From Frondihabitans australicus (lineage in GTDB: Bacteria > Actinomycetota > Actinomycetes > Actinomycetales > Microbacteriaceae): a stretch of DNA of 64,000 nucleotides. The stretch spans positions 2,108,001 to 2,172,000 of the forward strand of contig NZ_RBKS01000001.1 in NCBI RefSeq assembly GCF_003634555.1, in the 5' to 3' direction. Of this stretch, positions 44,953 to 60,509 are shown one piece after another. A model generated the notes under the pieces. The model was not told the origin of the DNA, searched no databases, and saw only the letters and a program-made list of their open reading frames with translations. The position numbers and the translations under genes are program-made. Each line of letters opens with the position of its first letter. The first letter of the stretch is position 1.

Positions 44953-47846
44953 GCGAAGGCTTCCACGGGCGGGCAGGCGCAGAAGAGGTTGCGGTCGCCG
45001 TAGGCCTGGTCGATGCGCCGCACGGGCGGCCAGTACTTCGACCGCACGAGCGAGCGAACCGGGTAGACGGCCTCCTCGCGCGTGTACGCGGCCGTCCACT
45101 CCCCCGCGATGACGCTCTCCGCCGTGTGCGGCGCCCCGCGCAGCGGCGACTCGTCGGCCGCCCACTCGCCCGCGCCGACGCGGTCGGCCTCGGCGCGGAT
45201 GGCGATCATCGCCTCGACGAAGCGGTCGAGCTCGGCGAGGTCCTCGCTCTCGGTCGGCTCGACCATGAGCGTGCCGGCGACCGGGAACGACATCGTCGGG
45301 GCGTGGAAGCCGTAGTCGATGAGCCGCTTGGCCACGTCGTCGACCGTCACCCCGGTGGCCTCGCGCAGCGGCCGCAGATCGAGGATGCACTCGTGCGCCA
45401 CGAGGCCGCCCTCGCCGGCGTACAGCACCGGGTAGTGCTCGCGCAGGCGCGCCGCGACATAGTTCGCGGCGAGGACGGCGGCCCCGGTGGCGTCCGTGAG
45501 GCCCCTGGTGCCCATCATGCGGACGTAGGCCCACGAGATCGGCAGGATGCTCGGGGACCCGTACGGCGCAGCGCTCACCGGCACTCCGGCGTGAGCGAGT
45601 CGCTCGCCGGCCTCCTGCACCGCCCCGGTGCGACGGTCGGCCTGCTGCGCCAGCGGGTGCCCCGGCAGGAACGGCGCCAGGTGCGCCTTCGCCGCGACAG
45701 GCCCCACACCCGGCCCTCCGCCGCCGTGCGGGATGCAGAAGGTCTTATGGAGGTTCAGGTGCGACACGTCGCCGCCGAACTCCCCGAACCGCGCGTAGCC
45801 GAGCAGGGCGTTGAGGTTCGCGCCGTCGACATAGACCTGACCGCCGGCGTCGTGCACGGCGTCCGTGATGTCGCGGATGTCGTGCTCGTAGACGCCGTGC
45901 GTCGACGGGTACGTGACCATGAGCGCCGCGAGCTCGTCGGCGTGCGAGGCGACCTTCGCCCGCAGGTCGCCGAGGTCGACGTTGCCCTGGGCGTCGCACG
46001 CCACGACGACGACGCGGAGCCCGGCGAGCACCGCACTGGCGGCGTTCGTGCCGTGAGCGCTCTCGGGGATCAGGCACACCGTGCGCGCCTCGTCGCCGCG
46101 CGACAGGTGGTAGCCGCGGATCGCGAGGAGCCCGGCGAGCTCACCCTGGCTGCCGGCGTTGGGCTGCAGCGATACGGTGTCGTAGCCGGTGACCTCGGCG
46201 AGCCAGCCCTCGAGCTGACCGATGAGCTCGAGGTAGCCCTCGACGTCGGCCGCGGGCGCGAACGGGTGGATCCCGGCGAACTCGGGCCAGGTCACGGCGG
46301 CCATCTCGGTGGCGGCGTTGAGCTTCATGGTGCAGGAGCCGAGGGGGATCATGCCGCGATCGAGCGCGTAGTCCTTGTCGGCCAGATGCTTGAGGTAGCG
46401 CATCATGCTGGTCTCGGACCGATGCGTGCGGAACACCGGGTGCGTGAGGAAGTCGCTCGTGCGCTCGAGCCCCGCGGGGATCGGCGACGTCGACCCGGTC
46501 GGCACGGCGAACCCGAGCAGGTCGCCGACCGCCTCGAGGTCCTCCCTGGTGGTGGTCTCGTCGACCGCGACGGAGACCGTGTCGGCGTCGGGCGCGTGCA
46601 GCAGGTAGCCGCGCTCGTGGGCCGCGGCGACGATCTCGTGGGCTCGGCCCGGGACGGCGAGGGCGACGGTGTCGAAGAACACGTCTGCGGCGAGGGCGAG
46701 GCCGGCCGCCTGTGCTCCTGCGGCCAGATCGGTCGCGTGCTGGTGCGTTCGCCTCGCGATGTGGGTGAGCCCCCACGGGCCGTGGTACACGGCGTACATG
46801 GACGCCATGACGGCCAGGAGCACCTGGGCGGTGCAGATGTTCGACGTGGCCTTCTCGCGGCGGATGTGCTGCTCGCGCGTCTGCAGGCTGAGGCGGTAGG
46901 CGGGGTTGCCCACTGCGTCTTGCGAGACGCCGACGAGGCGGCCGGGCAGCTGCCGCTCGAGGCCGGTGCGCACGGCCATGTAGCCGGCGTGCGGGCCGCC
47001 GAAGCCCATGGGCACGCCGAAGCGCTGGCTGGTGCCGACGGCGACGTCGGCTCCGAATTCGCCCGGCGCCGTGAGCAGCGTGAGGGCGAGCAGGTCGGCC
47101 GCGACGACCGCGAGGCCGCCGACCGCGTGAACGGCGTCGACGACGGGCGCAGGATCCCAGACCCGCCCGCTCGCCCCCGGGTACTGCACGAACACGCCGA
47201 AGCTCTCCGGCAGCGAGGCGGGCTCTGCCGCGGCCAGCGAGACCTCGACCAGCTCGATGCCGACCGCCCGGGCGCGCCCCGCGAGCAGAGCCTTGGTCTG
47301 CGGCAGGGCGTCGGCGTCGACGACGAAGCGGTTCGACGCGGACTTCGAGGCGCGGCGGGCGAGGAGCATGCCCTCGACGACCGCCGTCGACTCGTCGAGC
47401 ATCGACGCGTTCGCCGTCGTGAGACCGGTGAGCTCGGAGACCATCGTCTGGAAGTTGATGAGCGCTTCGAGCCGACCCTGCGAGATCTCGGGCTGGTACG
47501 GCGTGTAGGCGGTGTACCAGCTCGGGTTCTCGAGCACGTTCCGCTGGATCACGCTCGGGGTGACCGTGCCGTAGTAGCCGAGGCCGATCATCGAGCGGTT
47601 GACGCGGTTGCGGGAGGCCAGCGTGCGGAGCTCGGCCAGTGCCTCCTGCTCCCCCACGGGCTCGGGCAGCACGCTGCTCGGAAGCGGCAGGGCGGAGATG
47701 GCGTCGGGCACGGCGGCGCGGACGAGGGACTCGACGCTGTCGTGGCCGAGCAGGTCGAGCATCGCCCGCTGCTCGGGCGGCGTCGTGCCGATGTGGCGGT
47801 CGACGAAGCCGTCGGCGGCGACGCCCTGGACGAGAGCCCCGCTCAT
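44949..47846 (-). CDS. gcvP: Glycine dehydrogenase (aminomethyl-transferring), P-protein
   Basis: 965 residues from ATG 47846, which overlaps the gcvH stop as ATGA. Full-length homodimeric P-protein (usual 950-970). Hallmarks: [54 protein letters not shown], and the PLP-lysine loop [18 protein letters not shown] near residue 700. It decarboxylates glycine and passes the aminomethyl group to lipoylated GcvH. Cotranscribed with gcvT and gcvH behind a glycine riboswitch. A longer upstream frame through gcvH is an artefact. Confidence 0.97.
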
Positions 47847-48217
47847 TCGGCGGTGAGGGCGACGTACTCGTCGCGCGAGAGGAGGGTCGGGAGGTCGCCG
47901 GAGAGCGTGATCTTCACCAGCCAGCCGTCGCCGAACGGCGACGAGTTGACGAGGTCGGGGCTGTCGACGACGGCGTCGTTGATCTCGGAGACGGTGCCGA
48001 GCACGGGGGCGAAGAGCTCGCCGACCGACTTCGTCGACTCGATCTCGCCGACGACGGTGCCCGCCTCGACGGTGCTGCCGACCGCGGGCAGGTCGACGTA
48101 GACGACGTCGCCCAGCTTGTCGGCGGCGTAGTCGGTGATGCCGACGGTGGCGGTGTCGCCGTCGATCAGGAGCCACTCGTGCTCCGCGGTGTACTTCAGG
48201 GTGGTGAGGTCGGTCAC
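47843..48217 (-). CDS. gcvH: Glycine cleavage system H protein
   Basis: 124 residues from GTG 48217. Lipoyl-carrier fold with the modified Lys in [18 protein letters not shown] and the C-terminal [13 protein letters not shown]. It shuttles the aminomethyl group from GcvP to GcvT. The 21-base gap after gcvT and the ATGA overlap with gcvP place it in the middle of the operon. GCGAAAGG upstream is the ribosome-binding site. No lipoate ligase or synthase gene is in the window. Confidence 0.97.
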
Positions 48218-48238
48218 GGATATGCCTTTCGCAGGGGC

Positions 48239-49405
48239 CTAGGAGCGCTTGTAGAACGGGAGGGCGACGACGGTCGCCGGGATCACGGTGCCGCGCACGT
48301 CGACGCCGAGCGACGTGCCCGCGTCGGCGACGCCCGGGTCGACGTAGGCCATCGCCACCGGGTGGCCGAGCGTGGGCGACAGGGCGCCGCTCGTGACGAC
48401 GCCGACGACGGCCCCGGCGGAGTCGACGACGTCGTACTCGGCGCGGGCGGCGCGACGGCCCTCGAGGGCGAGGCCGACGAGCACGCGGGCGTCAGGAGCA
48501 GGCGTCACGCCCTCGCGGCCGGCGAACGACGGCTTCGTCATGTCGACCACGCGCCCGAGGCCGGCCTGGACCGGCTTCGTGTCGAGGCCGAGTTCGTGGC
48601 CGTAGAGCGGCATGCCCGCCTCGAGGCGCAGCGTGTCGCGGCTCGCGAGCCCCGCGGGCACGACGCCGCGGGGCGCGCCGGCCTCGGCCAGGGCCTCCCA
48701 GAGCGCAGGAGCCGAGTCGGGCTCGATGTACAGCTCGAAGCCGTCCTCGCCGGTGTACCCGGTGCGCGCGATGAGAAGCGGCACGTCGTCGAAGGTCGCC
48801 CGCAGCACGCGGTAGTAGCGGAGGTCGTCGACCGGCGAGTCGGGAGCGAGGCGGTCGGAGGCGACGAGCTCGTCGAGCACGCCCGCCGACTCGGGGCCCT
48901 GGATCGCGATGAGCGCGGTGTCGTCGCTCTCGTCGTCGACGGTGACGTCGAAGCCGTCGGCGCGGCGCGCGAGCAGGGCGAAGGCGGCCTCGCGATTGGC
49001 GGCGTTCGCCACCACGAGGTAGTCGTGCTCGTCGAGGCGGTAGACCACGAGGTCGTCCACGATCCCGCCGTCCGTCGACAGCAGCAGCGAGTACTTCGCC
49101 CGCCCCACGGCGATGGTCGAGAGGGTGCCGGCCAGGGCGTGGTCGAGGAAGTCGCCCGCCTCGTCGCCCACGACGGCGATCTCGGCCATGTGCGACAGGT
49201 CGAACAGCCCGGCCGCGGTGCGGACGGCGTGGTGCTCCTGCAGGTCGGAGGAGTAGCGGACGGGCATCTGCCAGCCGGCGAAGTCGGTGAAGGAGGCGCC
49301 GGCGGCGACGTGGACCTCGTGGAGGGGGCTGTGCCGCGGCTCCTGCGCCCCCTCCGCCAGCAGCAGCTCGGACGGTTCGCCGGGAGGGGTGGGGGAATCG
49401 GACAT
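48239..49405 (-). CDS. gcvT: Aminomethyltransferase, T protein
   Basis: 388 residues. [20 protein letters not shown] and [20 protein letters not shown] at the N-terminus, then [14 protein letters not shown] and the GCV_T C-terminal domain are as in T-proteins. It releases ammonia and forms 5,10-methylene-tetrahydrofolate from the GcvH-bound intermediate. First gene of the gcvTHP operon; its leader carries a tandem glycine riboswitch, so expression should rise with glycine. CCGGAGC lies eight bases before the ATG. Confidence 0.96.
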
Positions 49406-49452
49406 TCGGTTGCTCCGGATGGTCGAGGGCGGGCGGTCGCGGATTCGCGAGC

Positions 49453-49675
49453 GTTCTCCCCCTCTGTCATAGGCCTGAGAGCTTCACCCGGGCCACGAGG
49501 GCCGGGCTTTCACCGTGGGCGAGCCGCCGAGTGCGCGACTGCTTTTCAGAGCGGCCGAGTGGTCGTCGCGGTTCTGTGACCTGAGAGATTGGCGGGGATG
49601 CTTGCTCCTTCGGTGGCCGACCGCGGCGCCCTGGGGCGGTGCGCGGTCGTGCGCTCTCCCGCGACGGGAGGCGGC
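49453..49675 (-). ncRNA. Tandem glycine riboswitch (two gcvT aptamers)
   Basis: Read on the minus strand, the first aptamer (about 49665-49580) has GGGAGAGCGC, CCGAAGGAGCAAGC and AATCTCTCAGG. A short linker leads to a second aptamer (about 49560-49453) with TGAAAAGCAG, CGGTGAAAGCCC, GGTGAAGCTCTCAGG and the closing ACAGAGGGGGAG. These are the conserved core blocks of the gcvT motif in the usual tandem layout. It lies in the leader of gcvT; glycine binding is expected to switch on the cleavage operon. A TAGGCT at 49702-49697 is a suitable -10 for the leader. Confidence 0.93.
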
Positions 49676-49806
49676 CCGATGTTCGATTGTGGCTCGAGCC
49701 TAGCAAGCGACGGCGCCCCGCTCGGCGCGCGCACCGCGGGCACGGTAGATTCGACTTCTTGAACGGCGACCTCCCTCGGACGCCGCGCACGAGAAAGCGC
49801 TCCGCT

Positions 49807-50703
49807 ATGCCCGTCGACTCCCCCGAGCTCGCCTGCGTGGTCCTCGCCCACAGCGATCCCGCGCAGGTGCACCGCCTGATCGAGGCCCTCGACCCGTTCC
49901 CCGTGTTCCTGCACGTCGATGCGAACACGGCCGAGCCCGTGTTCGACGCGATCGTGCGCGACCTGCCCGAGCGGGTCACGATCCTGCGCCGCATCCCCAC
50001 CCCGTGGGCGACCTGGGGCGCCGTCGAGGCCGAGATCGAGGGGTACCGCGCGGCTCTCGGAGTACCCGGCATCACGCACGTGGCGCTCGTCTCGGGCGCC
50101 GACTACCCGATCGCGCCGATCGACGACATCCGCAGGATGCTGCGCGAGCACCCCGGCGACTCGTTCGGGGCGACCTCTCCCCTGCCGTACAGCGAGTGGG
50201 GCCACTCCGGTGGGTTCGACCGCCTGCGCTACCGCCACTGGGCGCGAGGCAAGCGGATGCTGCGCCTGCCGATCCCGCGATCGCTGCCGAAAGGCGTGGA
50301 CTTCGCCGGAGGGGCGACCTCGAAGATCCTCGCCGTCGATCACGCCCGAGCGCTCGTCGCGACCTACGACGCGCGCCCCGACCTCGTCGCGTTCTGGCGC
50401 CGCTCGTGGTCGGCGGACGAGACGTTCGTGAACTCGATCCTGAACACGCCCGCGTTCGTGCCGGGCTGGCGCGACGCGCACGTGAACACGCCGCTGTGGT
50501 GGATCGACTGGGGCGGACCCCGGAAGAAGAGTCCGCCGTGGCTCACGCTCGTCGACCTGCCGCGCCTCGAGACGCGCCACGTCGACGACGCCCAGCTGGT
50601 GCCGTGCACCTTCGCCCGGAAGTTCTCGACGCAGGCGTCGACCGACCTGATGGACGCGCTCGATGCGAAGCTCGGGCTGCGCCCCGGGGCCGCCGCGCGC
50701 TAG
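49807..50703 (+). CDS. GT14-like (core-2/I-branching type) glycosyltransferase
   Basis: 298 residues from ATG 49807. An in-frame TTG at 49759 lies seven bases after a TAGATT -10 box and could be a leaderless alternative start adding 16 residues. N-terminal AHSDPAQVHRLIEALDP, FPVFLHVDANT, TWGAVEAEIEGYRAAL, LVSGADYPIAPIDDIRRML and later SWSADETFVNSIL follow the beta-1,6-N-acetylglucosaminyltransferase pattern (SGxDYPL and DExF motifs). No signal peptide, so cytoplasmic. Acceptor unknown; possibly a cell-wall or exopolysaccharide unit. It is divergent from the gcv operon. Confidence 0.8.
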   Translation: MPVDSPELACVVLAHSDPAQVHRLIEALDPFPVFLHVDANTAEPVFDAIVRDLPERVTILRRIPTPWATWGAVEAEIEGYRAALGVPGITHVALVSGADYPIAPIDDIRRMLREHPGDSFGATSPLPYSEWGHSGGFDRLRYRHWARGKRMLRLPIPRSLPKGVDFAGGATSKILAVDHARALVATYDARPDLVAFWRRSWSADETFVNSILNTPAFVPGWRDAHVNTPLWWIDWGGPRKKSPPWLTLVDLPRLETRHVDDAQLVPCTFARKFSTQASTDLMDALDAKLGLRPGAAAR

Positions 50704-50710
50704 AGAAGAA

Positions 50711-51232
50711 CTAGAAGTTCGGGATCGCGCTCGGGTCGACCTTGGTCGACGCCGGCGGCTGGTCGCTCGAGGACGCGTCGTCCTGGTTGACACCCTGCGC
50801 CGCCGCCATGGCCGCGATCATGCCGCGGACGTCGTTGGCGAGCTGCTGGACGCCCTCGGGCAGCATCTCGAACCCCTCCTCGTTGCCGGGGTTGACGACG
50901 AGTCCGGCCTCGGCCGGGATGGCCTGCACGAACTCGGCGGCGGGCAGCTCGACCGCGTAGCCGGCGACCTCGGCGACCTGCTGCGGCACCCGGTCGATGT
51001 GCGTGAACACGGCGAGCATCTGCGTGCCCTCGCGGTCGAAGAGCACGGGCTGGAGCTCGTTCATGTCGTCTTTCACCTCGGTCGCCGTGGGCACGACGAT
51101 GGTCGAGTTGACGAACTGCGAGATGACCTCCTGCATGTCGGAGGCCCCGGCCTGACCCTGGCGGATCGCCGCCTCGAGGGCGGTGGGCTCGCGGGTCTCG
51201 TCAGACGTGGGGGTGGGCTCTGGGGATGTCAT
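50711..51232 (-). CDS. SseB-family protein
   Basis: 173 residues. The N-domain of the SseB family is recognisable as STIVVPTATEVKDDMNELQP then VLFDREGTQMLAVFTHIDRV and ELPAAEFVQAIPAEAGLVVN. The name comes from a Salmonella enhancer of serine sensitivity; many actinobacteria carry such proteins without a known job. The C-terminus is low-complexity (QDDASSSDQPPASTK). The only -10 visible, CAGTCT six bases before the ATG, is weak. Convergent with the glycosyltransferase gene, eight bases apart. Confidence 0.78.
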   Translation of the reverse strand: MTSPEPTPTSDETREPTALEAAIRQGQAGASDMQEVISQFVNSTIVVPTATEVKDDMNELQPVLFDREGTQMLAVFTHIDRVPQQVAEVAGYAVELPAAEFVQAIPAEAGLVVNPGNEEGFEMLPEGVQQLANDVRGMIAAMAAAQGVNQDDASSSDQPPASTKVDPSAIPNF

Positions 51233-51266
51233 CGCTCCAGACTGCCTGGGAAACCTCCGTGTGCGC

Positions 51267-52454
51267 TCAATCGCGCGTCACCCGGTGCCAGGCGCCGTCC
51301 GCTGCCGAGGCCTCCGCGGCCTCCACGACGCGGGCCGCGGCGAGCGCGTCGGCGACCGACGGCGCGACCTGCTCGCCGGTGACGACCGACTGCAGGAACT
51401 GGTACGCCTCGATGGTCTTGAGGTCGTCGAAGCTCATCGAGATGCCGGCGCCCGGCTGGAAGTGCGAGTAGTCGCCGTCGCCGGGGCCCGCGAGCACGGT
51501 CGTGTAGCCGTGGGTGTCGCCGCCGCGACCGAGGCAGACCTCGAGCTCGTTCATCCTGGCGAAGGTCCACTTCAGAGACCCCTCGGTGCCGAAGACCTCG
51601 ATGGAGTAGTCGCTGCGCGGGCCGACCGCGACGCGGCTGGCCTCGAAGAAGCCGACGGCCTTCGAGTCGCGGAAGCGCACGAGAAGCGAGGCGTAGTCCT
51701 CGTTCTCGACGGCGCGCTTCGGGTCGTCGTCGCTCGCGAGCTGGTGTCCGACGGTGGCGTGCTGAGGCACCGGACGCTCGCCGATGACGGTCTGGGTGAG
51801 CGCGGTGACGCTGTCGGCCTCCCCGACGATCTGCGAGGCGAGGTCGACGCCGTGGCTGAGCAGGTCGCCGAGCACACCTGATCCTGCCCTCGCCGTCTCG
51901 TAGCGCCAGGTGAACGCGCCCAGCGGGTCGGCCGAGTAGTCGGCGAGCAGCGACACCTTCACGTTGGTGATCTCGCCCAGAGCCCCGTCGCGCACGAGAC
52001 GCTTCGCGTGCTGGATCGCAGGAGCCTGCCGATACGTGAACCCGACCCCCGTCACCAGGCCCGCGGCCGCCGCCGCCCCCACGATGTCGGCGGTCTCCTC
52101 GGCGTTCCGGCCGGTCGGCTTCTCGATCCAGAACGGCTTGCCGGCCTCGGCGGCGGCGAGCGCGAACTCGCGGTGGAGGAAGTTCGGGGCGCAGATCGAC
52201 ACGACGTCGACCTCGGGGTCGGCCAGCACGTCGCGGTAGTCGAGGGTGGAGCGCTCGTAGCCGAGGACGTCGACGGCGTAGTCGGCGTTTGCCTGCACGG
52301 CGTCGGCGGCGACGACGAGACGGGGGCGGAAGGTCGCCTCGGGGTAGGCGAAGCGGATCGATTCGTACGCCTTGGAGTGCAGGCGGCCCATCCAGCCGAC
52401 GCTGATGAGTCCTACGCCGAGGGTGCGGTGGGCCGGGTGCGACGATGCAGTCAT
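51267..52454 (-). CDS. Gfo/Idh/MocA family NAD(P)-dependent oxidoreductase
   Basis: 395 residues. ATG 52454 follows a TATCAT -10 (52466-52461) by six bases, excluding the longer frame from 52502. Rossmann N-terminal GVGLISVGWMGRLHSKAYES, VDVVSICAPNFLHREFALAA and the EKP catalytic Lys in KPFWIEKPTGRNAEE. The C-terminal domain has GGSGVLGDLLSHGVDLA-like features (RAGSGVLGDLLSHGVDLASQ). Acts on a sugar, inositol or related polyol; the substrate cannot be told. It stands alone and is divergent from the heme peroxidase gene. Confidence 0.88.
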   Translation of the reverse strand: MTASSHPAHRTLGVGLISVGWMGRLHSKAYESIRFAYPEATFRPRLVVAADAVQANADYAVDVLGYERSTLDYRDVLADPEVDVVSICAPNFLHREFALAAAEAGKPFWIEKPTGRNAEETADIVGAAAAAGLVTGVGFTYRQAPAIQHAKRLVRDGALGEITNVKVSLLADYSADPLGAFTWRYETARAGSGVLGDLLSHGVDLASQIVGEADSVTALTQTVIGERPVPQHATVGHQLASDDDPKRAVENEDYASLLVRFRDSKAVGFFEASRVAVGPRSDYSIEVFGTEGSLKWTFARMNELEVCLGRGGDTHGYTTVLAGPGDGDYSHFQPGAGISMSFDDLKTIEAYQFLQSVVTGEQVAPSVADALAAARVVEAAEASAADGAWHRVTRD

Positions 52455-52536
52455 GCGTAAATGATAGGACAAACGGACATGCAGCGGGTGCGGACTACGC
52501 ACAATCGCTTATCGACGTCGGGTACAGCCGCCTTCT

Positions 52537-52542
52537 AGCGTG
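52537..52542 (+). promoter_or_regulatory. -10 element of the peroxidase-patatin operon
   Basis: TAGCGT fits TANNNT and sits about 38 bases before the ATG, leaving a leader with a good GAAGGAGAG ribosome-binding site. TCGACG lies 18 bases upstream as a poor -35. Confidence 0.4.
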
Positions 52543-52579
52543 TGGCGCGATCACACACCCACGCTCGAAGGAGAGCACC

Positions 52580-54316
52580 ATGACCGCTTCGCACTCCACG
52601 TCGGCCAATCCGGCCGGCGGTCACGGCGGCGGTGTCCGCGGCGACCTCGTCGCACACCGCTCGAGCCAGTTCGAAGGCCGCTACGGCCGCCTGTTCCGCT
52701 CCCTCCCGGCGGCCTCCTGGCCGATGTCCGCGCTCAACGCGCTCGGGCACGCCATGACCGCCGATCCCGAGACGGACCCCGCCGACCCGACGATGCCGGC
52801 GGCCTCGCCCGAGACCGACGCGATCCTCCAGGACGACGAGGAGAACGCCGGGATCCCGGCCGGGTACACCTACTTCGGCCAGTTCATCGATCACGACATC
52901 ACGTTCGATCCTGCCTCCAGCATGATGAAGGCGAACGACCCGGACGCCCTGATCGACTTCCGCACGCCTCGCCTCGACCTCGACAACGTCTACGGGCGGG
53001 GGCCCGACGACCAGCCGTACCTCTACGTCGGCAACAAGCTGCGCCTCGGCCGCCACCTCACCGAGGGCGTGGGCAGCGCCACGCCGGGCCGAGGTCACGC
53101 GGTGAACCTGCGCGACGTGCCGCGGTACGCAGACGTCGACGACCCGACGCTGCCCAAGCGAGCCCTGATCGGCGACAAGCGCAACGACGAGAACGTCATC
53201 GTCTCGCAGCTGCAGTCGTCGATCCTGCAGTTCCACAACCGCCTCGTCGACCTGCACCCGACGTCGACGTTCGCCGAGGTCCAGCAGCTGGTGCGCTGGC
53301 ACTACCAGTGGCTCGTCATCAACGACTTCCTGGTCAGGATCTGCGGGAAGGACCTCGTGGACGAGATCTTCCCGCACCGCCTCGACTCCGTGCCGGCAGC
53401 GGAGAAGCGCCCGACGCTCAGCCTCTACCGCTTCAAGAACGACCCGTTCATGCCGATCGAGTTCTCGGTCGCGGCCTACCGCTTCGGCCACTCCATGGTG
53501 CGGCCGATCTACCGCCTCAACACGGTGCTCGACGGCGGCGACGACCCGCTGCACGCGACCGCGCACGAGAAGGCGATCGGCCTCGCCGGGCGGTTCTTCA
53601 TCTTCGCCGGCGTGCAGATCCGCGGCCTCGACGGGTTCGACGAGTTCCCCTCGCCGTGGGCGATCGACTGGAGCCTGTTCTTCGACATCCCGGGCGTCGC
53701 GCCGGTGGGCGGCAAGCGCCGCGTGCAGCCGGCCTACAAGATCGACACGTCGCTGGTGAACCCGCTCGGCTTCCTGCCCGAGTTCTCGACGCTCCTCAAG
53801 CCGCCGGTGTCGCCGCCGATCACCGTCGAGAAGCTGCAGGCGAAGCCGGTCGACCCGACCAACGACCCGGCGAACCTCGCGATCCGCAACCTGCTGCGCG
53901 GCATGGCCCTGCAGCTGCCGAGCGGCCAGGCCGTCGCCGACGCGCTCGGCATCGACCGGATACCCGACGACCAGCTCACCGTGCAGAAGGCGACCCTCGC
54001 CGACACCGCAGCGAGCCCGCAGAAGCTCGTCGACCTCGATACGTCCTTCGCCGGCAACGCGCCGCTCTGGTACTACGTCCTGGCCGAGGCTCAGGTGGAA
54101 TGGCTGAAGAAGGCGAAGGGGGTCAACGGCAAGGGCGACGCCGAGCCGCTCCACCTCGGGCCCGTGGGCGGCAGGATCGTGGCGGAGACCCTCATCGGCC
54201 TGATCCAGGGCGACAGCGAGTCGTACCTCAACCAGCGGCCGAACTTCGAGCCCGTCGTCGACGGCAAGCGCCTCGACACCGTGGGCGCCCTCCTCCAGTG
54301 GGCGGTGCGCTCATGA
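52580..54316 (+). CDS. Animal-type heme peroxidase (peroxidase-cyclooxygenase superfamily)
   Basis: 578 residues from ATG 52580 with GAAGGAG upstream. The active-site set of this superfamily is complete: Gln101, Asp104, His105 (distal) and Asp106 in FGQFIDHDITFDP; Arg201 and Glu204 in GDKRNDEN; proximal His304 in AYRFGHSMVRP. Asp104 and Glu204 are the positions that bind heme covalently by ester bonds in mammalian peroxidases. The Tyr found three residues before the proximal His in cyclooxygenases is Arg here, so peroxidase chemistry is more likely than fatty-acid dioxygenation. No signal peptide is visible. It overlaps the patatin gene as ATGA. Confidence 0.9.
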   Translation: MTASHSTSANPAGGHGGGVRGDLVAHRSSQFEGRYGRLFRSLPAASWPMSALNALGHAMTADPETDPADPTMPAASPETDAILQDDEENAGIPAGYTYFGQFIDHDITFDPASSMMKANDPDALIDFRTPRLDLDNVYGRGPDDQPYLYVGNKLRLGRHLTEGVGSATPGRGHAVNLRDVPRYADVDDPTLPKRALIGDKRNDENVIVSQLQSSILQFHNRLVDLHPTSTFAEVQQLVRWHYQWLVINDFLVRICGKDLVDEIFPHRLDSVPAAEKRPTLSLYRFKNDPFMPIEFSVAAYRFGHSMVRPIYRLNTVLDGGDDPLHATAHEKAIGLAGRFFIFAGVQIRGLDGFDEFPSPWAIDWSLFFDIPGVAPVGGKRRVQPAYKIDTSLVNPLGFLPEFSTLLKPPVSPPITVEKLQAKPVDPTNDPANLAIRNLLRGMALQLPSGQAVADALGIDRIPDDQLTVQKATLADTAASPQKLVDLDTSFAGNAPLWYYVLAEAQVEWLKKAKGVNGKGDAEPLHLGPVGGRIVAETLIGLIQGDSESYLNQRPNFEPVVDGKRLDTVGALLQWAVRS

Positions 54317-55374
54317 GCGACACGATGCTCGACCCGGTCGAGGCGAAGGAGAAGGACGCCGGCGCGAAGTTCGCCGACCTCGTCCTCGAAGGCGGCGGCG
54401 TCAAGGGCATCGGGCTCGCAGGAGCCGTGACCACCCTCGCGCGGGACGGCTACCGGTTCCCGCGCATCGGCGGCACGTCGGCCGGCGCGATCGTCGCCTG
54501 TCTCGTCGCCGTCTTCGAGCAGAAGAACGTCGGGCTCGACACGCTCGAGGAGGTCATGAAGTCGATGACGTTCTCGAACTTCGAGGGCCGGTCGTGGGCG
54601 CAGCGGGTCTTCGGGCCGGTGGGGAACGCCGCGGCCGTGCTCGCTCACCAGGGCGTGTACTCGTCGGACTACCTCGAGACCTGGCTGGGCGGGATCCTGA
54701 AGGAGCACGGCGTCGAGACCTTCGGCGACCTGCGCCTCGACGACCCCGGCGCCGACGCGAACCTCCCCGACGAGCGCAAGTACCGGCTCGTCGTGCACGC
54801 CTCCGACCTCACGCGCAAGTGCCTGGTGCGGATCCCGTGGGACCTCCCGCAGTACCTCTGCGCGCCCGACGCCTCGCCCGAGGAACGGAGGGCCGCGATC
54901 GACTCGTATCGGCTCGTCGACGCGGTCCGCGCCTCCATGTCGATCCCGTGGTTCTTCCGGCCGTTCCTGCAGCGCACGGCGACCGGGTCGTGCACGTGGG
55001 TCGACGGCGGGCTCCTGGAGAACTTCCCGGTCACCGTGTTCGACCGCACCGACGGACGGCCGAACCGCTGGCCCACGTTCGGCGTGAAGCTGTCGAGCCG
55101 GCCGGGGCCCGCGTCGAACGACCGCACCGTGCTCGGCAACATCGCCGAGCTCAAGGCCGTGGCGTCGACGACGCTCGGCCAGTGGAACCGCTACGTCCTC
55201 ACCGACGACGGCGTGGACGCCCGCACCGTCTGGGTCGACACCGACGGGATCTCGGCGACCGAGTTCCACCTCAGCGGCGCGCAGCAGGACACCCTGTACG
55301 CCAACGGCACGGCGGCCGCCGACAGGTTCCTCACCGAGTGGCGGCAGATGCAGGCGCCGAAGGTGACCGCCTAG
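54313..55374 (+). CDS. Patatin-like phospholipase (acyl hydrolase)
   Basis: 353 residues. The ATG overlaps the peroxidase stop codon as ATGA, so the two are translationally coupled. Patatin fold: oxyanion loop LEGGGVKGIGLAGA (about residues 25-38), nucleophile Ser56 in GGTSAGAI and Asp231 in TWVDGGLLENFPV, the intact Ser-Asp dyad. It should release fatty acids from phospholipids or neutral lipids. No signal peptide or membrane helix is visible. The pairing with a superfamily that oxidises fatty acids in other organisms suggests a joint lipid pathway. Its TAG overlaps the convergent methyltransferase stop. Confidence 0.92.
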   Translation: MSDTMLDPVEAKEKDAGAKFADLVLEGGGVKGIGLAGAVTTLARDGYRFPRIGGTSAGAIVACLVAVFEQKNVGLDTLEEVMKSMTFSNFEGRSWAQRVFGPVGNAAAVLAHQGVYSSDYLETWLGGILKEHGVETFGDLRLDDPGADANLPDERKYRLVVHASDLTRKCLVRIPWDLPQYLCAPDASPEERRAAIDSYRLVDAVRASMSIPWFFRPFLQRTATGSCTWVDGGLLENFPVTVFDRTDGRPNRWPTFGVKLSSRPGPASNDRTVLGNIAELKAVASTTLGQWNRYVLTDDGVDARTVWVDTDGISATEFHLSGAQQDTLYANGTAAADRFLTEWRQMQAPKVTA

Positions 55375-56165
55375 GGGAGCCCGACGAGCAGCCGGAGGGA
55401 GCCGTCGAACTCCGGCTGCTCGCGGAGGTGCCCGTGGGCGGCGTCCCACGCCCCGGAGGCGAGGTCGGCCGAGAGGGTGTCGACGAAGCGGGCCTCCACA
55501 TCCTGCGCCACGAAGCTCCAGGCCGAGTTGGCGAGCCGGGCCCCGGGCTCCAGCAGCCGCTCGGGGCGCCCGTAGTACGCCTCGCCGAAGCCGTCGGTGC
55601 AGTCGAGCGGGATGCCGACGTGCTCGATGCGCACCTGCCCGCCGAGCGCCCGGGCGACACGCTCCGGTTCGGGGTAGCGCGACGCCTCGGTGGCGATGAC
55701 CTCCGGCGCGTAGTCGACCAGCCAGAAGCGGTCGAGGGCCGCAGGATCGCACGACAGCAGCACGACAGGGCCCCGGGTGACGCGACGCATCTCGGCGAGA
55801 CCCCGCTCGAGGGCGGACCACTGGTGGATCGAGAACGTGGCCATCGACGCGTCGAAGGAATCGTCGGCGAACGGCAGGCTCTCGGCCGTGGCGTCGATCG
55901 CCGGTGCCAGGTCGGCGGGCCGCTGGGCGCGCATGGAGGCGCTGGGCTCGACCGGCGTGACCGTGCGGTCGCGCGGCTCGTACGACCCCGCGCCCGCGCC
56001 CACGTTCAGCACGGTGACCGCGTCGCCGAGGGCGCGCTCGATCGCGGCGGCGATGCGCGGGTCTGGCTGCCGGTAGTCGGTGTAGCCGCGGCCGATGGTG
56101 CCGTAGTCGGCGTCGCCGGCGCTGCCGTCGAGGTGGCGCCCGTCAGGCGCGGTGTCGGTGCTCAT
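55371..56165 (-). CDS. Class I SAM-dependent methyltransferase
   Basis: 264 residues; TAGGGT (56177-56172) ends six bases before the ATG (leaderless). SAM-binding glycine motif VLNVGAGAGSYEP, then TPVEPSASMRAQR, ATAESLPFADDSFDASMAT and SALERGLAEMRRVTRGPVVL, as in Methyltransf_11 (UbiE-like) enzymes. Small-molecule substrate unknown. It is convergent with the patatin gene and shares a CTAG with it, so it is probably not part of that operon. Confidence 0.85.
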   Translation of the reverse strand: MSTDTAPDGRHLDGSAGDADYGTIGRGYTDYRQPDPRIAAAIERALGDAVTVLNVGAGAGSYEPRDRTVTPVEPSASMRAQRPADLAPAIDATAESLPFADDSFDASMATFSIHQWSALERGLAEMRRVTRGPVVLLSCDPAALDRFWLVDYAPEVIATEASRYPEPERVARALGGQVRIEHVGIPLDCTDGFGEAYYGRPERLLEPGARLANSAWSFVAQDVEARFVDTLSADLASGAWDAAHGHLREQPEFDGSLRLLVGLP

Positions 56166-56259
56166 GACTCGACCCTACGGTCGGTCGCGAGCGCGCAGCG
56201 CTCGACGCGTCGGCTTCGGCCGAGGAGCGCTGCGCCTCGGCCGAGACGGAGCGCCGACC

Positions 56260-56532
56260 TCAGACCAGGTAGTAGAGGTCGTCGATGGCGTCGCGACCGC
56301 GCGCGGGCGACCCGCTGATGCCGCGGATGATGTCGCGTCGCGCGAGGATCCGCAGGTGCGCGTGCAGGGCTCGCGGCGAGCACGGGATCAGCGTGAGCAT
56401 CTCGGCGGGCGCCAACGCGGCCCGCCCGGAGAGGGCCGTCACGATGCGCGCCCGGATCGGCGACACCGCGACGATCTGAGCGTCGGTGAGGCCGCGGGTG
56501 GGCTCCATCGGGCAGAATGTCGGGTTCGTCAT
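56260..56532 (-). CDS. ArsR-like winged-helix transcriptional regulator
   Basis: 90 residues from ATG 56532; TAGAAT (56544-56539) ends six bases upstream (leaderless). A winged helix-turn-helix is visible in SPIRARIVTALSGRAALAPA, EMLTLIPCSPRALHAHLRIL and RRDIIRGISG. No metal-binding cysteine cluster of the classic ArsR type is evident. It is divergent from the Old Yellow Enzyme gene, and the palindrome between them covers both -10 boxes, so it probably represses itself and that gene. Confidence 0.78.
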   Translation of the reverse strand: MTNPTFCPMEPTRGLTDAQIVAVSPIRARIVTALSGRAALAPAEMLTLIPCSPRALHAHLRILARRDIIRGISGSPARGRDAIDDLYYLV

Positions 56533-56533
56533 A

Positions 56534-56553
56534 CTGAAATTCTATCATTTCTG
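56534..56553. promoter_or_regulatory. Operator-like inverted repeat between the ArsR-type and OYE genes
   Basis: CTGAAAT and ATTTCTG are 7-base arms (one mismatch) around TCTATC. The minus-strand TAGAAT (56544-56539) and plus-strand TATCAT (56543-56548) -10 boxes both fall inside, so one bound repressor could block both directions. Confidence 0.55.
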
Positions 56554-56668
56554 TCTGTCATGGAGGAAGAGTCAGGGCTGAGAGCATCCTGTGCAGGGGA
56601 ATGCGAGCGCGCCGGATGAGGTCGCACTCTGGGTACGTCGGGTGCAGGATCCGGCGGAAAGGACACCC

Positions 56669-57742
56669 GTGGATCTCTTCTCCCCGCTCACCCTCGGCGA
56701 CCTCGACCTCGCGAACCGCGTCGTCATGGCCCCGCTCACCCGCACCCGCTCCGGGCAGTCGGGCGTGCCGAACGATCTCAACGTCGAGCACTACGCGCAG
56801 CGCGCCGGAGCCGGCCTGATCATCACCGAGGGCACCTGGCCGAGCGCGGAGGGCCGCTCCTACCCCGGGCAGCCGGGCATCGTCACGGACGAGCAGGAGG
56901 CCGGCTGGAAGCGGGTCGCCGACGCCGTCCACGCCCGAGGCGGGCGACTCGTCATGCAGGTCATGCACGGCGGCCGCGTGTCGCACACCGACATCACCGG
57001 CACCGACCGCATCGTCGGGCCCAGTGCCGTCGCCATCGAGGGCGAGACGCACGTGCCCGACGGCAAGAAGGCGTTCCCCGTGCCGCACGAGCTCACCGTC
57101 CACGAGCTCGACGACGTGAGGGCCGAATTCGTCGAGGCGTCGAAGCGCGCCGTCCGCGCCGGGCTCGACGGCGTCGAGATGCACTCCGCCAACGGCTACC
57201 TCCTGCACGAGTTCCTCTCCCCCGCGTCGAACCGGCGCACCGACGACTTCGGCGGGAGCCCGGAGAACCGCATCCGCTTCGTCGTCTCCGTCGTCGAGGC
57301 CGTCGCCGCCTCGGTGGGGGCCGGGCGCGTGGGCATCCGGATCTCGCCGTCGCACAACATCCAGGACGTCGCCGAGACCGACGCCGACGACGTGCAGGCG
57401 ACCTACAGCGGCCTCATGAAGGCGCTGGCCCCGCTCGGGCTCGCCTACGTGAGCATCCTGCACGCCGACCCCACGGGCGACTTCATCCAGGGCCTGCGCC
57501 GGGACTTCGGCGGCGGCTTCATCGTGAACTCCGGATTCTCGCACGTGACCACGCGCGAGGAGGCCATCTCGCTCGTCGAGGGCGCGCACGCCGACGCCGT
57601 CGCGGTCGGCCGGGCGATCATCGCCAACCCCGACCTCGTCGAGCGCTGGCGCACCTCGGCTCCCGAGAACGAGCTCGACCCCACGACGCTCTACGGCGCG
57701 ACCGCGAAGGGCTACATCGACTACCCCGCGCTCGGCGCGTAA
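56669..57742 (+). CDS. Old Yellow Enzyme family alkene reductase (FMN)
   Basis: 357 residues from GTG 56669, with GGAAAGGAC directly upstream; a GTG at 56591 in frame would add 26 residues lacking similarity. OYE barrel motifs: FSPLTLGDLDLANRVVMAPL, QVMHGGRVSH, GVEMHSANGYLLHEFLSP (substrate-binding His and Asn) and SNRRTDDFGGSPENRIRF. FMN-dependent reduction of activated alkenes, nitro compounds or nitrate esters with NAD(P)H, as in NemA and XenB. Divergent regulator suggests induction by electrophiles. Confidence 0.93.
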   Translation: MDLFSPLTLGDLDLANRVVMAPLTRTRSGQSGVPNDLNVEHYAQRAGAGLIITEGTWPSAEGRSYPGQPGIVTDEQEAGWKRVADAVHARGGRLVMQVMHGGRVSHTDITGTDRIVGPSAVAIEGETHVPDGKKAFPVPHELTVHELDDVRAEFVEASKRAVRAGLDGVEMHSANGYLLHEFLSPASNRRTDDFGGSPENRIRFVVSVVEAVAASVGAGRVGIRISPSHNIQDVAETDADDVQATYSGLMKALAPLGLAYVSILHADPTGDFIQGLRRDFGGGFIVNSGFSHVTTREEAISLVEGAHADAVAVGRAIIANPDLVERWRTSAPENELDPTTLYGATAKGYIDYPALGA

Positions 57743-57752
57743 GGTCGACGGC

Positions 57753-58235
57753 GTGAAGCCGTTGACCGAGGACGACATCCGTTCGTCGTTCGTGAACGCC
57801 CAGCCGGGCGACCTCGACCGCCTCCCGATCCCCGGGCTGCACGAGATGCTCTGGAACGAGAGGGAGTACCTCGGCTGGCGCGACAGCCAGGCGCACCTGC
57901 GCGGCTACATCGTGCACTGGATGGACGGCCGGCCCACGGGCCTCGTCGTGCGGACGTCGTCGACCCCGCTGCGACCCGGCATCGCGGCGATGTGCTCGCT
58001 GTGCCACTCCCCTCAGCCGGCGACGCAGGTGCGGCTGTTCACCGCGCCGCGCGCCGGCGAGGCGGGGCTCAACGGCAACACGCTCGGCACGTACATCTGC
58101 GAAGACCTCGCCTGCTCGATCCTCATCCGGGTCGCGCCGCCGCACCTCAACCCGCCCGAGCGGATCGCCGAGCGGGCGGAGGGCCTGCTCCAGCGGGTGC
58201 AGAACTTCACCGCCAGCGTGATGAAGACCGCCTGA
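57753..58235 (+). CDS. FBP domain protein (EF-G-binding-like treble-clef zinc finger)
   Basis: 160 residues from GTG 57753, ten bases after the OYE stop. MKPLTEDDIRSSFVNAQ and LPIPGLHEMLWNEREYLGWRD precede a treble-clef zinc finger with MCSLCHSPQPA and TYICEDLACS, matching the C-terminal domain of FusB-type elongation-factor-G-binding proteins (FBP). FusB releases EF-G stalled by fusidic acid. This is a stand-alone C-domain type widespread in Actinobacteria; resistance is not shown. Probably cotranscribed with the OYE gene. Confidence 0.82.
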   Translation: MKPLTEDDIRSSFVNAQPGDLDRLPIPGLHEMLWNEREYLGWRDSQAHLRGYIVHWMDGRPTGLVVRTSSTPLRPGIAAMCSLCHSPQPATQVRLFTAPRAGEAGLNGNTLGTYICEDLACSILIRVAPPHLNPPERIAERAEGLLQRVQNFTASVMKTA

Positions 58236-58365
58236 CCTCGACGGTTCCGGCCCCACGTCATCCCCTGGTCTGATTTCCGGCCCGAACGCAGGATTCGAGG
58301 GCGCTTTGCAGACAGCGGAGGTACCGTTCCGGCACGGCCCACACCACACCGAAAGCTGGCCTGCC

Positions 58366-59547
58366 ATGACTCTCGAATCCCCGACCTCCAAGGCGCGGCT
58401 GCGCTGGATCCCCGCGCTCGCCGTGCCCGCCGCGGTCGTCGCCGCCGTGATCGCCGTGCCGCAGATGGCGAACGCCGACGTGAAGCTCCCGTCGAAGACG
58501 CCCGCGGCCATCGTTGCACTCGCCGAGTCGAGCCAGGGCGTCTCGTTCTCCGGCACCGTCAGCGAGACCGCGAACCTCGGCCTGCCCGACATCTCGTCGT
58601 CCGCCCTCGGCGGCGGCAGCGACTCCGACAGCGTCTCGAGCGCTCTCTCGCAGCTCACCGGAACCCACACCGCGAAGGTCTACGTGTCCGGCACCACGGC
58701 GTCGCGCATCCAGACGCTCGACAACCTCGCCGAGCGCGACGTGATCCGCAACGGCGACTCCATCTGGACCTACGACTCGAAGTCCAACAGCGCCGTCCAC
58801 ATCACGTTGCCCGCGAAGGGCGTCCACGCGACGCCGCAGACCGACACCGGCCAGGCTTCCATGACGCCGCAGAGCGTCACGGCCGAGGTGCTGAAGAACG
58901 TGAAGAAGTACTCGACGGTGTCGACCAGCGAGAACGTCAAGGTCGCCGGCCGCACCGCCTACGGCCTCACCGTGACCCCGAAGACGTCGAAGACGCTCGT
59001 CAAGTCGGTCACTCTCGACATCGACTCCGCCACCGGCGTGCCGCTGCGCGCGACGATCCTGGCGAAAGGCCAGACGAAGCCGGCCTTCGAGGTCGGATTC
59101 ACCGACATCTCGTTCTCGAACCCGTCGGCCTCCGTGTTCTCGTTCACACCCCCGAAGGGCGCAAGCGTCAAAAACGTGAGCCCCGCGGAGCACTCCGGCC
59201 TCGCCCACGGCGTCCAGCCGGGCGTGCAGACGCAGAGCGGCGAGGCCGCGACGGCGCAGCAGAAGGCCCAGGCCAAGTACAAGTCAGCGCTGGCCAAGTA
59301 CGACCCGCAGGTGCTGGGCTCGGGCTGGACCACGATCCTCAGCGCGACGCTGCCGAACGGCGCCGCCGGGCTCTCGGCGGGCGGCGGCCAGTCGTCTCAG
59401 CTCCTGAACCAGGTGCTCACCCGCGTCGACGGCGGCCGCGTGCTCCAGACGGCGCTCGTCTCCGTCTACATCAGCGACTCCGGGAAGGTCTACGTGGGGG
59501 CCGTGAGTGCGGCGACGCTGGAGGCCGAGGCAGCGTCGCAGAAGTGA
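58366..59547 (+). CDS. LolA-like exported lipoprotein-carrier fold protein
   Basis: 393 residues from ATG 58366. A long N-terminal signal/anchor helix (WIPALAVPAAVVAAVIAVPQ) ends near ANADV; no lipobox Cys is present. The extracytoplasmic part has the LolA/LppX-like pattern (TPAAIVALAESSQGVSFSGT; IRNGDSIWTYDSKSNSA; KVAGRTAYGLTVTPK; GVPLRATILAKGQ). Its stop overlaps the ATP-binding gene as GTGA, so the three-gene unit may be a lipid or lipoprotein handling system. A TACCGT at about 58321 is a candidate -10. Confidence 0.82.
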   Translation: MTLESPTSKARLRWIPALAVPAAVVAAVIAVPQMANADVKLPSKTPAAIVALAESSQGVSFSGTVSETANLGLPDISSSALGGGSDSDSVSSALSQLTGTHTAKVYVSGTTASRIQTLDNLAERDVIRNGDSIWTYDSKSNSAVHITLPAKGVHATPQTDTGQASMTPQSVTAEVLKNVKKYSTVSTSENVKVAGRTAYGLTVTPKTSKTLVKSVTLDIDSATGVPLRATILAKGQTKPAFEVGFTDISFSNPSASVFSFTPPKGASVKNVSPAEHSGLAHGVQPGVQTQSGEAATAQQKAQAKYKSALAKYDPQVLGSGWTTILSATLPNGAAGLSAGGGQSSQLLNQVLTRVDGGRVLQTALVSVYISDSGKVYVGAVSAATLEAEAASQK

Positions 59548-60509
59548 CCTCCGCGGCTCCTGCGCCCCTCGCCATCGAGACGACGGGGCTGACGAAGCGG
59601 TTCTCGAAGCAGCTCGCCGTGCAGGGGCTCGACCTGGCGGTGCCGCGCGGCAGCGTGTTCGGGTTCCTCGGGCCGAACGGCTCGGGCAAGACCACCACGA
59701 TCCGCATGCTGCTGGGCCTCACGCGCGCCACGAGCGGTGACATCCGCCTTCTCGACGGCGACATGCCCGGGCAGCTCGCCGCCGTGCTGCCTCGCGTCGG
59801 CGCGCTCGTCGAGGGGCCGGCCTTCTACCCGTTCCTCACCGGCCGACAGAACCTGCATCGGCTCGACACCGCCGACCGGTCCGCGCCGACCGCCACGCGC
59901 TCCGAGCGGGTCGCCGCCGCCCTCGACCGCGTCGGGCTCTCGCACGCCGCCGACAAGAAGGCCCACGCCTACTCGCTCGGCATGAAGCAGCGGCTCGGCA
60001 TCGCGAACGCGCTGCTCATGCCACGTGACCTGCTCGTGCTCGACGAGCCGTCGAACGGCCTCGACCCGCAGGGCACCCGCGAGGTGCGATCGCTGATCGG
60101 CTCGCTCGCCGACGACGGCACGACCGTGTTCGTGTCGAGCCACCTGCTCAGCGAGATCGAGCAGATGTGCTCGCACGCGGCGGTCATGAGCGCGGGGCGC
60201 CTCGTCACCCAGGGCACCCTGGAGGAGCTGCGGGCGGCCGGGCGACAGCGCGTCAGCGTGACCACGCCCGACGTCGACGCGGCGCTCGGCGTCCTCGGCC
60301 GACTCGGGCTCGACCCCGAGCCTCGGGGTCACGGCGAGCACGTCACGGGCGTGGCGGCCGACGTGCCCGCCGACGGGCCAGCCGCCGAGATCGTGGCGAA
60401 AGCCCTCGTCGACGCAGGCGTCAGGCTTCGCGGCTTCGAGGTCGCCGGCGCCAGCCTCGAAGACCGCTTCGTCGACCTGACCGGGGAGGGCTTCGATGTC
60501 GCAGGCTGA
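59544..60509 (+). CDS. ABC transporter ATP-binding protein (ABC-2 type partner)
   Basis: 321 residues from GTG 59544. Walker A FLGPNGSGKTTTIRMLLG, signature AYSLGMKQRLGIANAL, Walker B LLVLDEPSNGLDP and switch His in VFVSSHLLSEIEQM. It is the DrrA/CcmA-like class used by ABC-2 exporters. The C-terminal 100 residues include a DUF4162-like tail. Translationally coupled to the LolA-like gene (GTGA) and overlapping the permease gene by 14 bases. Confidence 0.93.
   Translation: MTSAAPAPLAIETTGLTKRFSKQLAVQGLDLAVPRGSVFGFLGPNGSGKTTTIRMLLGLTRATSGDIRLLDGDMPGQLAAVLPRVGALVEGPAFYPFLTGRQNLHRLDTADRSAPTATRSERVAAALDRVGLSHAADKKAHAYSLGMKQRLGIANALLMPRDLLVLDEPSNGLDPQGTREVRSLIGSLADDGTTVFVSSHLLSEIEQMCSHAAVMSAGRLVTQGTLEELRAAGRQRVSVTTPDVDAALGVLGRLGLDPEPRGHGEHVTGVAADVPADGPAAEIVAKALVDAGVRLRGFEVAGASLEDRFVDLTGEGFDVAG

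Follow-up and report, generated by a model that had tools for sequence, protein, structure and literature searches.

The superfamily of haem peroxidases and cyclooxygenases (Pfam An_peroxidase, PF03098) includes, as Family 5, the short peroxicins, of which actinobacterial as well as proteobacterial members have been described (Zamocky 2015, PMC4420034). According to that account a GQxxDHD motif is typical except in Family 4 (the cyclooxygenases) and Family 7, RxxE is a further distal motif, and the proximal histidine is bonded to an asparagine, with the same two exceptions; it also states that the physiological role of Family 5 and of the bacterial peroxicins was completely unknown in 2015. 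The characterised bacterial relatives in the superfamily oxidise halides, and RbMPO from Rhodopirellula oxidises iodide, thiocyanate, bromide, and chloride (PMC10204396). Here we consider a haem peroxidase gene (578 amino acids, 52580..54316, plus strand) that is followed on the same strand by a gene for a patatin-like acyl hydrolase (PF01734, 353 amino acids, 54313..55374) in Frondihabitans australicus. Positions refer to the window, i.e., the whole 64,000-nucleotide stretch analysed (positions 2,108,001 to 2,172,000 of contig NZ_RBKS01000001.1), which is part of a 4.04 Mb genome assembled as a single contig. The reading that we favour, and to which we give about an even chance, is that of a two-gene operon belonging to one lineage of a Microbacteriaceae genus and encoding a cytosolic, short-peroxicin-like peroxidase and a patatin-type acyl hydrolase. 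The locus is a genus-level pairing, probably in an operon, of two already known kinds of enzyme, and the main outcome of the analysis is that it argues against a prostaglandin-like interpretation of this pair.

The peroxidase matches PF03098 with an E-value of 3.1e-12 (46.3 bits against a curated cut-off of 25), which places it in the superfamily, and it is the only match to this model in the source genome. It carries a distal GQFIDHD at residues 100-106, RNDE at 201-204, a proximal RFGH at 301-304, and Asn437, and with Q101, D104, H105, D106, R201, E204, H304, and N437 the full signature of the peroxidase-type Families 1-3, 5, and 6 is present, including Asp104 and Glu204, the counterparts of the residues that carry the haem esters in related peroxidases. 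Conservation was counted in 56 relatives, i.e., 55 of 61 other peroxidase loci (L066, L067, and L177-L180 were left out) together with the peroxidase of G150, a genome of another species of the genus. Arg301, Gln101, His105, Asp106, Arg201, and His304 are each found in 56/56, Asp104 in 53, and Glu204 and Asn437 in 51 each, so that a few relatives are without an ester residue or the asparagine. These motifs make up the signature of the halide- and donor-oxidising peroxidases, and His304 is likely to pair with Asn437. In agreement with this, a profile built from 14 of the peroxidases found 24 PDB sequences at E-values up to 0.01 (best 8.2e-14), each of which is named as a lactoperoxidase, a myeloperoxidase, an eosinophil peroxidase, or a peroxinectin, and none as a cyclooxygenase or alpha-dioxygenase; the single sequence gave no PDB match at E-values up to 0.001. 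The protein is short-peroxicin-like and not cyclooxygenase-like, where the assignment to Family 5 is one by signature and length and not by a tree including published Family 5 sequences.

The position three residues before the proximal histidine separates the two kinds of enzyme. Cyclooxygenase and the fungal and cyanobacterial dioxygenases are described as retaining a catalytic tyrosine (PMC13049297), and the same is reported for two mushroom dioxygenases (PMC9579011). Where these oxygenases carry the tyrosine the window protein has Arg301, which is invariant in the 56 relatives and sets the protein apart from Family 4. In the profile alignment RFGH falls on the RYGH of myeloperoxidase, with arginine at the position of Arg301, and the adjoining outer residue, Tyr300, is Tyr in 47/56 and Phe in 9/56 relatives, where the aligned myeloperoxidase has Phe followed by Arg. 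As aligned, the arginine is not a blemish in a cyclooxygenase but the residue that the peroxidases have there. The original prediction had noted the arginine correctly and only as a caution; it in fact weighs heavily against an oxygenase, and the compact lipid-oxidation module proposed there is not supported, given the arginine shared with myeloperoxidase and the GQxxDHD and His-Asn signature; a part in lipid damage, the other role suggested there, has weak support. In such an oxylipin module the patatin would free fatty acids and the haem enzyme would oxygenate them, by analogy with phospholipase A2 and cyclooxygenase. Superfamily membership and adjacency are all that speak for this; the arginine, kept throughout the relatives where the dioxygenases keep tyrosine, the peroxidase-type motifs, and the absence of any cyclooxygenase from the PDB profile matches leave it highly improbable. 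A bacterial prostaglandin-like module is thus unlikely because the peroxidase lacks the tyrosine of its fatty-acid-oxygenating relatives, and a function as fatty-acid oxygenase was rejected on the exchange at this position together with the peroxidase signature. The cyanobacterial linoleate 10S-dioxygenase differs in the same way, as it retains the catalytic tyrosine and oxygenates linoleate, and its described partner is a catalase-related hydroperoxide lyase, not a lipase (PMC13049297).

Other described systems resemble the locus in part. The short bacterial peroxicins share with the window protein the short length, GQxxDHD, RxxE, and the proximal His-Asn pair, but in the window a patatin gene comes after the peroxidase gene and overlaps it. 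Myeloperoxidase and lactoperoxidase, LspPOX from Lyngbya, and RbMPO (PMC10204396) have the same catalytic residues and the haem-ester Asp and Glu, and myeloperoxidase also has, as aligned, the arginine three residues before the proximal histidine; on the other hand these enzymes are only distantly similar in sequence, and the window protein has Asn205 in place of the sulfonium Met243 of myeloperoxidase. Of the long peroxicins, the Mn(II)-oxidising MopA of Erythrobacter is likewise a bacterial superfamily member, and one whose activity was tested, but it is described as a large, multidomain protein with a hemolysin-type calcium-binding domain (PMC6247904), whereas the window protein is a single short domain.

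The second protein matches Pfam Patatin (PF01734) with an E-value of 8.9e-30 (104.8 bits, cut-off 27.7), and this match together with an intact Ser-Asp dyad makes it a patatin; PF01734 has three matches in the source genome. GGGVKG begins at residue 27, GTSAG contains Ser56, and DGG contains Asp231. Its PDB matches, both weak, are PlpD (5fqu, E 3.1e-6) and a cUMP-AMP-activated phospholipase (9iom, E 7.7e-4), with which it has the glycine-rich loop, the GxSxG serine, and the DGG aspartate in common. It differs from them in being without an obvious export signal and in having no cyclic-nucleotide enzyme among the ten neighbouring proteins scanned. By a crude hydropathy measure (highest 19-residue average in the first 60 residues 0.64 for the peroxidase and 1.1 for the patatin) neither protein shows clear signs of a signal peptide or of a membrane-spanning helix.

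In an anti-phage reading of the pair, to which we attach next to no probability, the patatin would serve as a membrane-degrading effector. The patatin scores weakly with the NCBIfam models CBASS_lipase (25.8 bits) and anti-phage DS2_1 (23.2 bits) and with a PADLOC effector model (34.4 bits), but the NCBIfam scores are far under the respective cut-offs (200 and 400 bits), and the NCBIfam model that scores highest is VpdC, also a patatin model, at 34.8 of 1000 bits, which points to general patatin likeness. Neither a nucleotide cyclase nor any further defence domain is present in the ten neighbours, except for an AAA_21 match in the ATPase of an ATP-binding cassette (ABC) transporter, and the peroxidase has no match to PADLOC models at E-values up to 0.1. 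With 25.8 of 200 bits and no cyclase among these neighbours, the patatin does not qualify as a phospholipase effector of the cyclic-oligonucleotide-based anti-phage signalling system (CBASS), and a defence effector was rejected on the weak model scores and the lack of a defence system in the scanned neighbourhood. Viral contigs gave no match to six peroxidase peptide patterns, in a scan that reaches close relatives only; in a scan of the same reach one viral contig of IMG/VR was found to encode a patatin 28% identical to that of the window (L148:4980-5852), downstream of an open reading frame that by eye resembles a lysozyme-type muramidase.

The arrangement of the two genes is tight. The peroxidase starts with ATG at 52580, with AAGGAG a short way upstream, and ends with TGA at 54314-54316, and the patatin runs from ATG at 54313 to a stop at 55372-55374, so that the two share the four bases ATGA (54313-54316). 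Third codon positions are 96% G+C in the peroxidase and 98% in the patatin, and both genes are intact. These coordinates, the Pfam matches, and the crude hydropathy values bear out the description in the original prediction of two intact, ATGA-overlapping enzyme genes without export signals, and the peroxidase residues Gln101, Asp104, His105, Arg201, Glu204, and His304 as well as the patatin residues Ser56 and Asp231 are found where it placed them. In G150 (L050) an overlap of four bases is likewise predicted at the same junction, there as GTGA and hence with a different start codon, and the next in-frame start would cut off the beginning of the patatin domain. The co-production of the two proteins, previously asserted outright, is probably real, because the predicted overlap recurs in this other species of the genus. 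As an arrangement an NTGA overlap is not rare: crude gene calls in 31 fetched loci, several of which may repeat others, and in the window allow a start of this kind for 20/160 same-strand neighbours, a count that excludes the window pair itself since the gene caller missed the window patatin. Searches for sigma-70-like promoters and for terminators in 52300-55600 returned none of either (shuffled sequences gave 0.1 and 1.1), which has little meaning at this G+C content.

Within the genus, the peroxidase is found in 2/7 genomes, a patatin match in 3/7, and the adjacent pair in 2/7, the window's own (G000) and G150. The five other genomes have no peroxidase at all, and beside their FBP gene the pair is absent; in four of them (L143, L144, L145, and L147) both flanks are visible, the far one with the gcvT and gcvH genes. 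For the fifth (L146, from G087) and for G150 the fetched stretch showed the interval from its FBP side only, and the statement that the pair occupies the same site in the window and in G150 rests on that one flank. Between the window and G150 the number of synonymous substitutions per site (dS) is 0.55 and 0.53 for the pair and 0.48 for the FBP gene, the sole flanking gene measured. With values so near to that of the flanking gene, the pair probably dates from about the time at which the two species separated. The two peroxidases are 77% identical in amino acid sequence and the two patatins 63%, and the ratio of nonsynonymous to synonymous differences (pN/pS) is 0.39, 0.71, and 0.17 for the peroxidase, the patatin, and the FBP gene, respectively.

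Outside the genus the two genes were found apart. Among 299 genomes of the family the peroxidase is present in 18 and the patatin in 14, and G000 and G150 alone have both. When the draw was enlarged to 398 family genomes, 22 had the peroxidase, and none of the four added has a patatin nearby. Among 396 genomes of the phylum the peroxidase is present in 35, the patatin in 67, and both in 12, and in the 11 of these besides the window's own the two genes lie on different contigs, as read off coordinates in multi-contig assemblies. The other peroxidase loci, 61 distinct ones in all, comprise 32 taken from the phylum draw, 8 from the family draw, 13 from genome contigs, 4 from plasmids, and 4 that were added late. 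Most of them extend for several kb to either side, although 10 have less than 1.5 kb of DNA on one side, and none has an adjoining patatin. From the 35 phylum genomes, 28 gave 33 fetched loci, G142 had been fetched earlier, G000 is the window's own, and G340, G409, G481, G487, and G656, which have weak or fragmentary peroxidase matches, were left out. Of the plasmid records, 4/34 with a peroxidase match and 2/7 with a patatin match were opened, and genera g12 and g46, with weak short matches, were judged only from the short loci returned. The first patatin profile was narrow (two Pfam patatins of L098 reached only E 0.017 and 0.11), and a broader one was then built for the loci; genome searches with the patatin as query were equally narrow, and the phylum search missed G658, which holds these two patatins. 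They overlap each other (L098:10617-12532), belong to another subfamily, and precede a peroxidase gene of the same strand by about 2.9 kb, a distance that takes in a further open reading frame and a gap; by eye their glycine-rich loops deviate from the usual GGGxxG.

A widespread two-gene system was rejected on this survey, as adjacency in unrelated genomes was found at 0/61 loci. The adjacency, for which the original prediction had proposed such a survey, comes close to failing it: it is not a property of a single strain but, as far as searched, extends to only 2/7 genomes of one genus. In the open-access literature searched no description of a patatin-haem peroxidase pair was found, which is no proof that the pair is undescribed. 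The nearest relatives of the peroxidase, in three genomes of genus g25 (67-70% identity) and in Undibacterium terreum (62%), are among the loci without an adjoining patatin. In a tree with 56 rows, made up of the window protein and the relatives that were fetched, the former groups with that of G150 (support 97/93), and these two, the genus g25 proteins, and, outermost, that of Undibacterium terreum form a group of six (support 100/99). Undibacterium terreum belongs to the Pseudomonadota, and the 62% identity of its peroxidase (L003:7965-9662) to an actinobacterial one, together with this grouping, points to a transfer from one phylum to another; the genes that come next on that strand are one without Pfam match and one for a STAND NTPase (nSTAND1).

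Several of these observations weigh against the favoured reading. First, no other locus examined has both genes side by side, and neither gene needs the other as a neighbour. Second, the operon link rests on one genus. Third, the patatin changes fast (63% identity and a pN/pS of 0.71 vs 0.39), which suggests weak constraint. Fourth, co-occurrence in the phylum sample exceeds expectation (12 vs 5.9, one-sided Fisher p 0.007, and 11 vs 5.7, p 0.015, without the window's genome, by a statistic that ignores kinship and genome size), which could hint at a shared lifestyle, at some looser link, or at a link tighter than this reading assumes, and which speaks against a low view of the pairing. It is possible, though not probable, that the two are chance operon neighbours, i.e., accessory genes that share a transcript in one lineage and have unrelated tasks. 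The 2/7 and 0/61 counts are in agreement with this, as are the occurrence of both genes apart in other genera, the ordinary nature of NTGA overlaps by the crude count above, and the variable gene content, across the genus, of the stretch from gcvT to the FBP-domain gene. On the other hand, the two species are separated by about half a synonymous substitution per site and over this distance the overlap has been retained, with both genes intact, and the phylum co-occurrence lies somewhat above chance.

Under the favoured reading, the operon would have been gained or kept in one lineage of the genus. From what is known of the two families, the peroxidase would turn over hydrogen peroxide (H2O2) while oxidising small donors such as halides, thiocyanate, or phenols, its haem probably being ester-linked via Asp104 and Glu204, and the patatin would cleave acyl esters of lipids. 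It is conceivable that both enzymes take part in one oxidative or membrane stress response in which they would act in parallel and hand over no substrate; this is a guess from the presumed co-expression in two species. An operon partner that is kept in two species is in any case a modest clue to the role of peroxicins.

A closer cooperation may also be considered. Haem peroxidases can reduce hydroperoxides, and the patatin could cut oxidised acyl chains from membrane lipids for the peroxidase to reduce the freed hydroperoxides. Both proteins look cytosolic, and the genome has one fatty-acid desaturase gene (PF00487), which makes unsaturated chains possible; but none of the NCBIfam equivalog models fits the desaturase (the best score is 33.3 bits where the cut-off is 380), and Microbacteriaceae membranes are usually branched and saturated and hence poor in oxidisable lipid. 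The pair is moreover limited to two species, and the relatives of the peroxidase have no adjoining patatin. Even with the analogy to mammalian iPLA2-gamma, which is reported to be able to release oxidised fatty acids and to be stimulated by H2O2 (PMC8146845), such a repair pair is unlikely. That the myeloperoxidase-like peroxidase and the patatin translated with it form a bacterial unit for the repair of membrane lipid peroxides, jointly removing oxidised acyl chains inside the cell, must be called quite unlikely, and if true it would be the first physiological role for short peroxicins. The desaturase gene (L168:1288-2400) has QAEHH as its last histidine box, a form known from front-end desaturases.

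The genes on either side of the pair lie outside the operon. Upstream is a divergent GFO/IDH/MocA oxidoreductase gene (51267..52454, minus strand), and downstream a convergent methyltransferase gene (Methyltransf_11, 55371..56165, minus strand), the 3' end of which overlaps that of the patatin gene. The oxidoreductase gene is present without the pair in L143, where it adjoins the flavin oxidoreductase gene, and in L147, where it adjoins the methyltransferase gene. The ten neighbours scanned include on one side this oxidoreductase and an SseB protein, and on the other the methyltransferase, a small helix-turn-helix protein, an Oxidored_FMN flavin oxidoreductase, the FBP zinc-finger protein, and the ABC transporter. 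The stretch from the gcvT and gcvH genes to the FBP and rseB-like genes (47843-60509) differs in the genes it holds between those genomes of the genus that were compared, and forms a small variable region. Upstream of the gcvT gene a glycine riboswitch aptamer was found at 49559-49671 on the minus strand (48 bits against a gathering score of 32). An open reading frame of the Branch family has its nominal start, at 49639, within this aptamer, and the true start of the frame is probably later.

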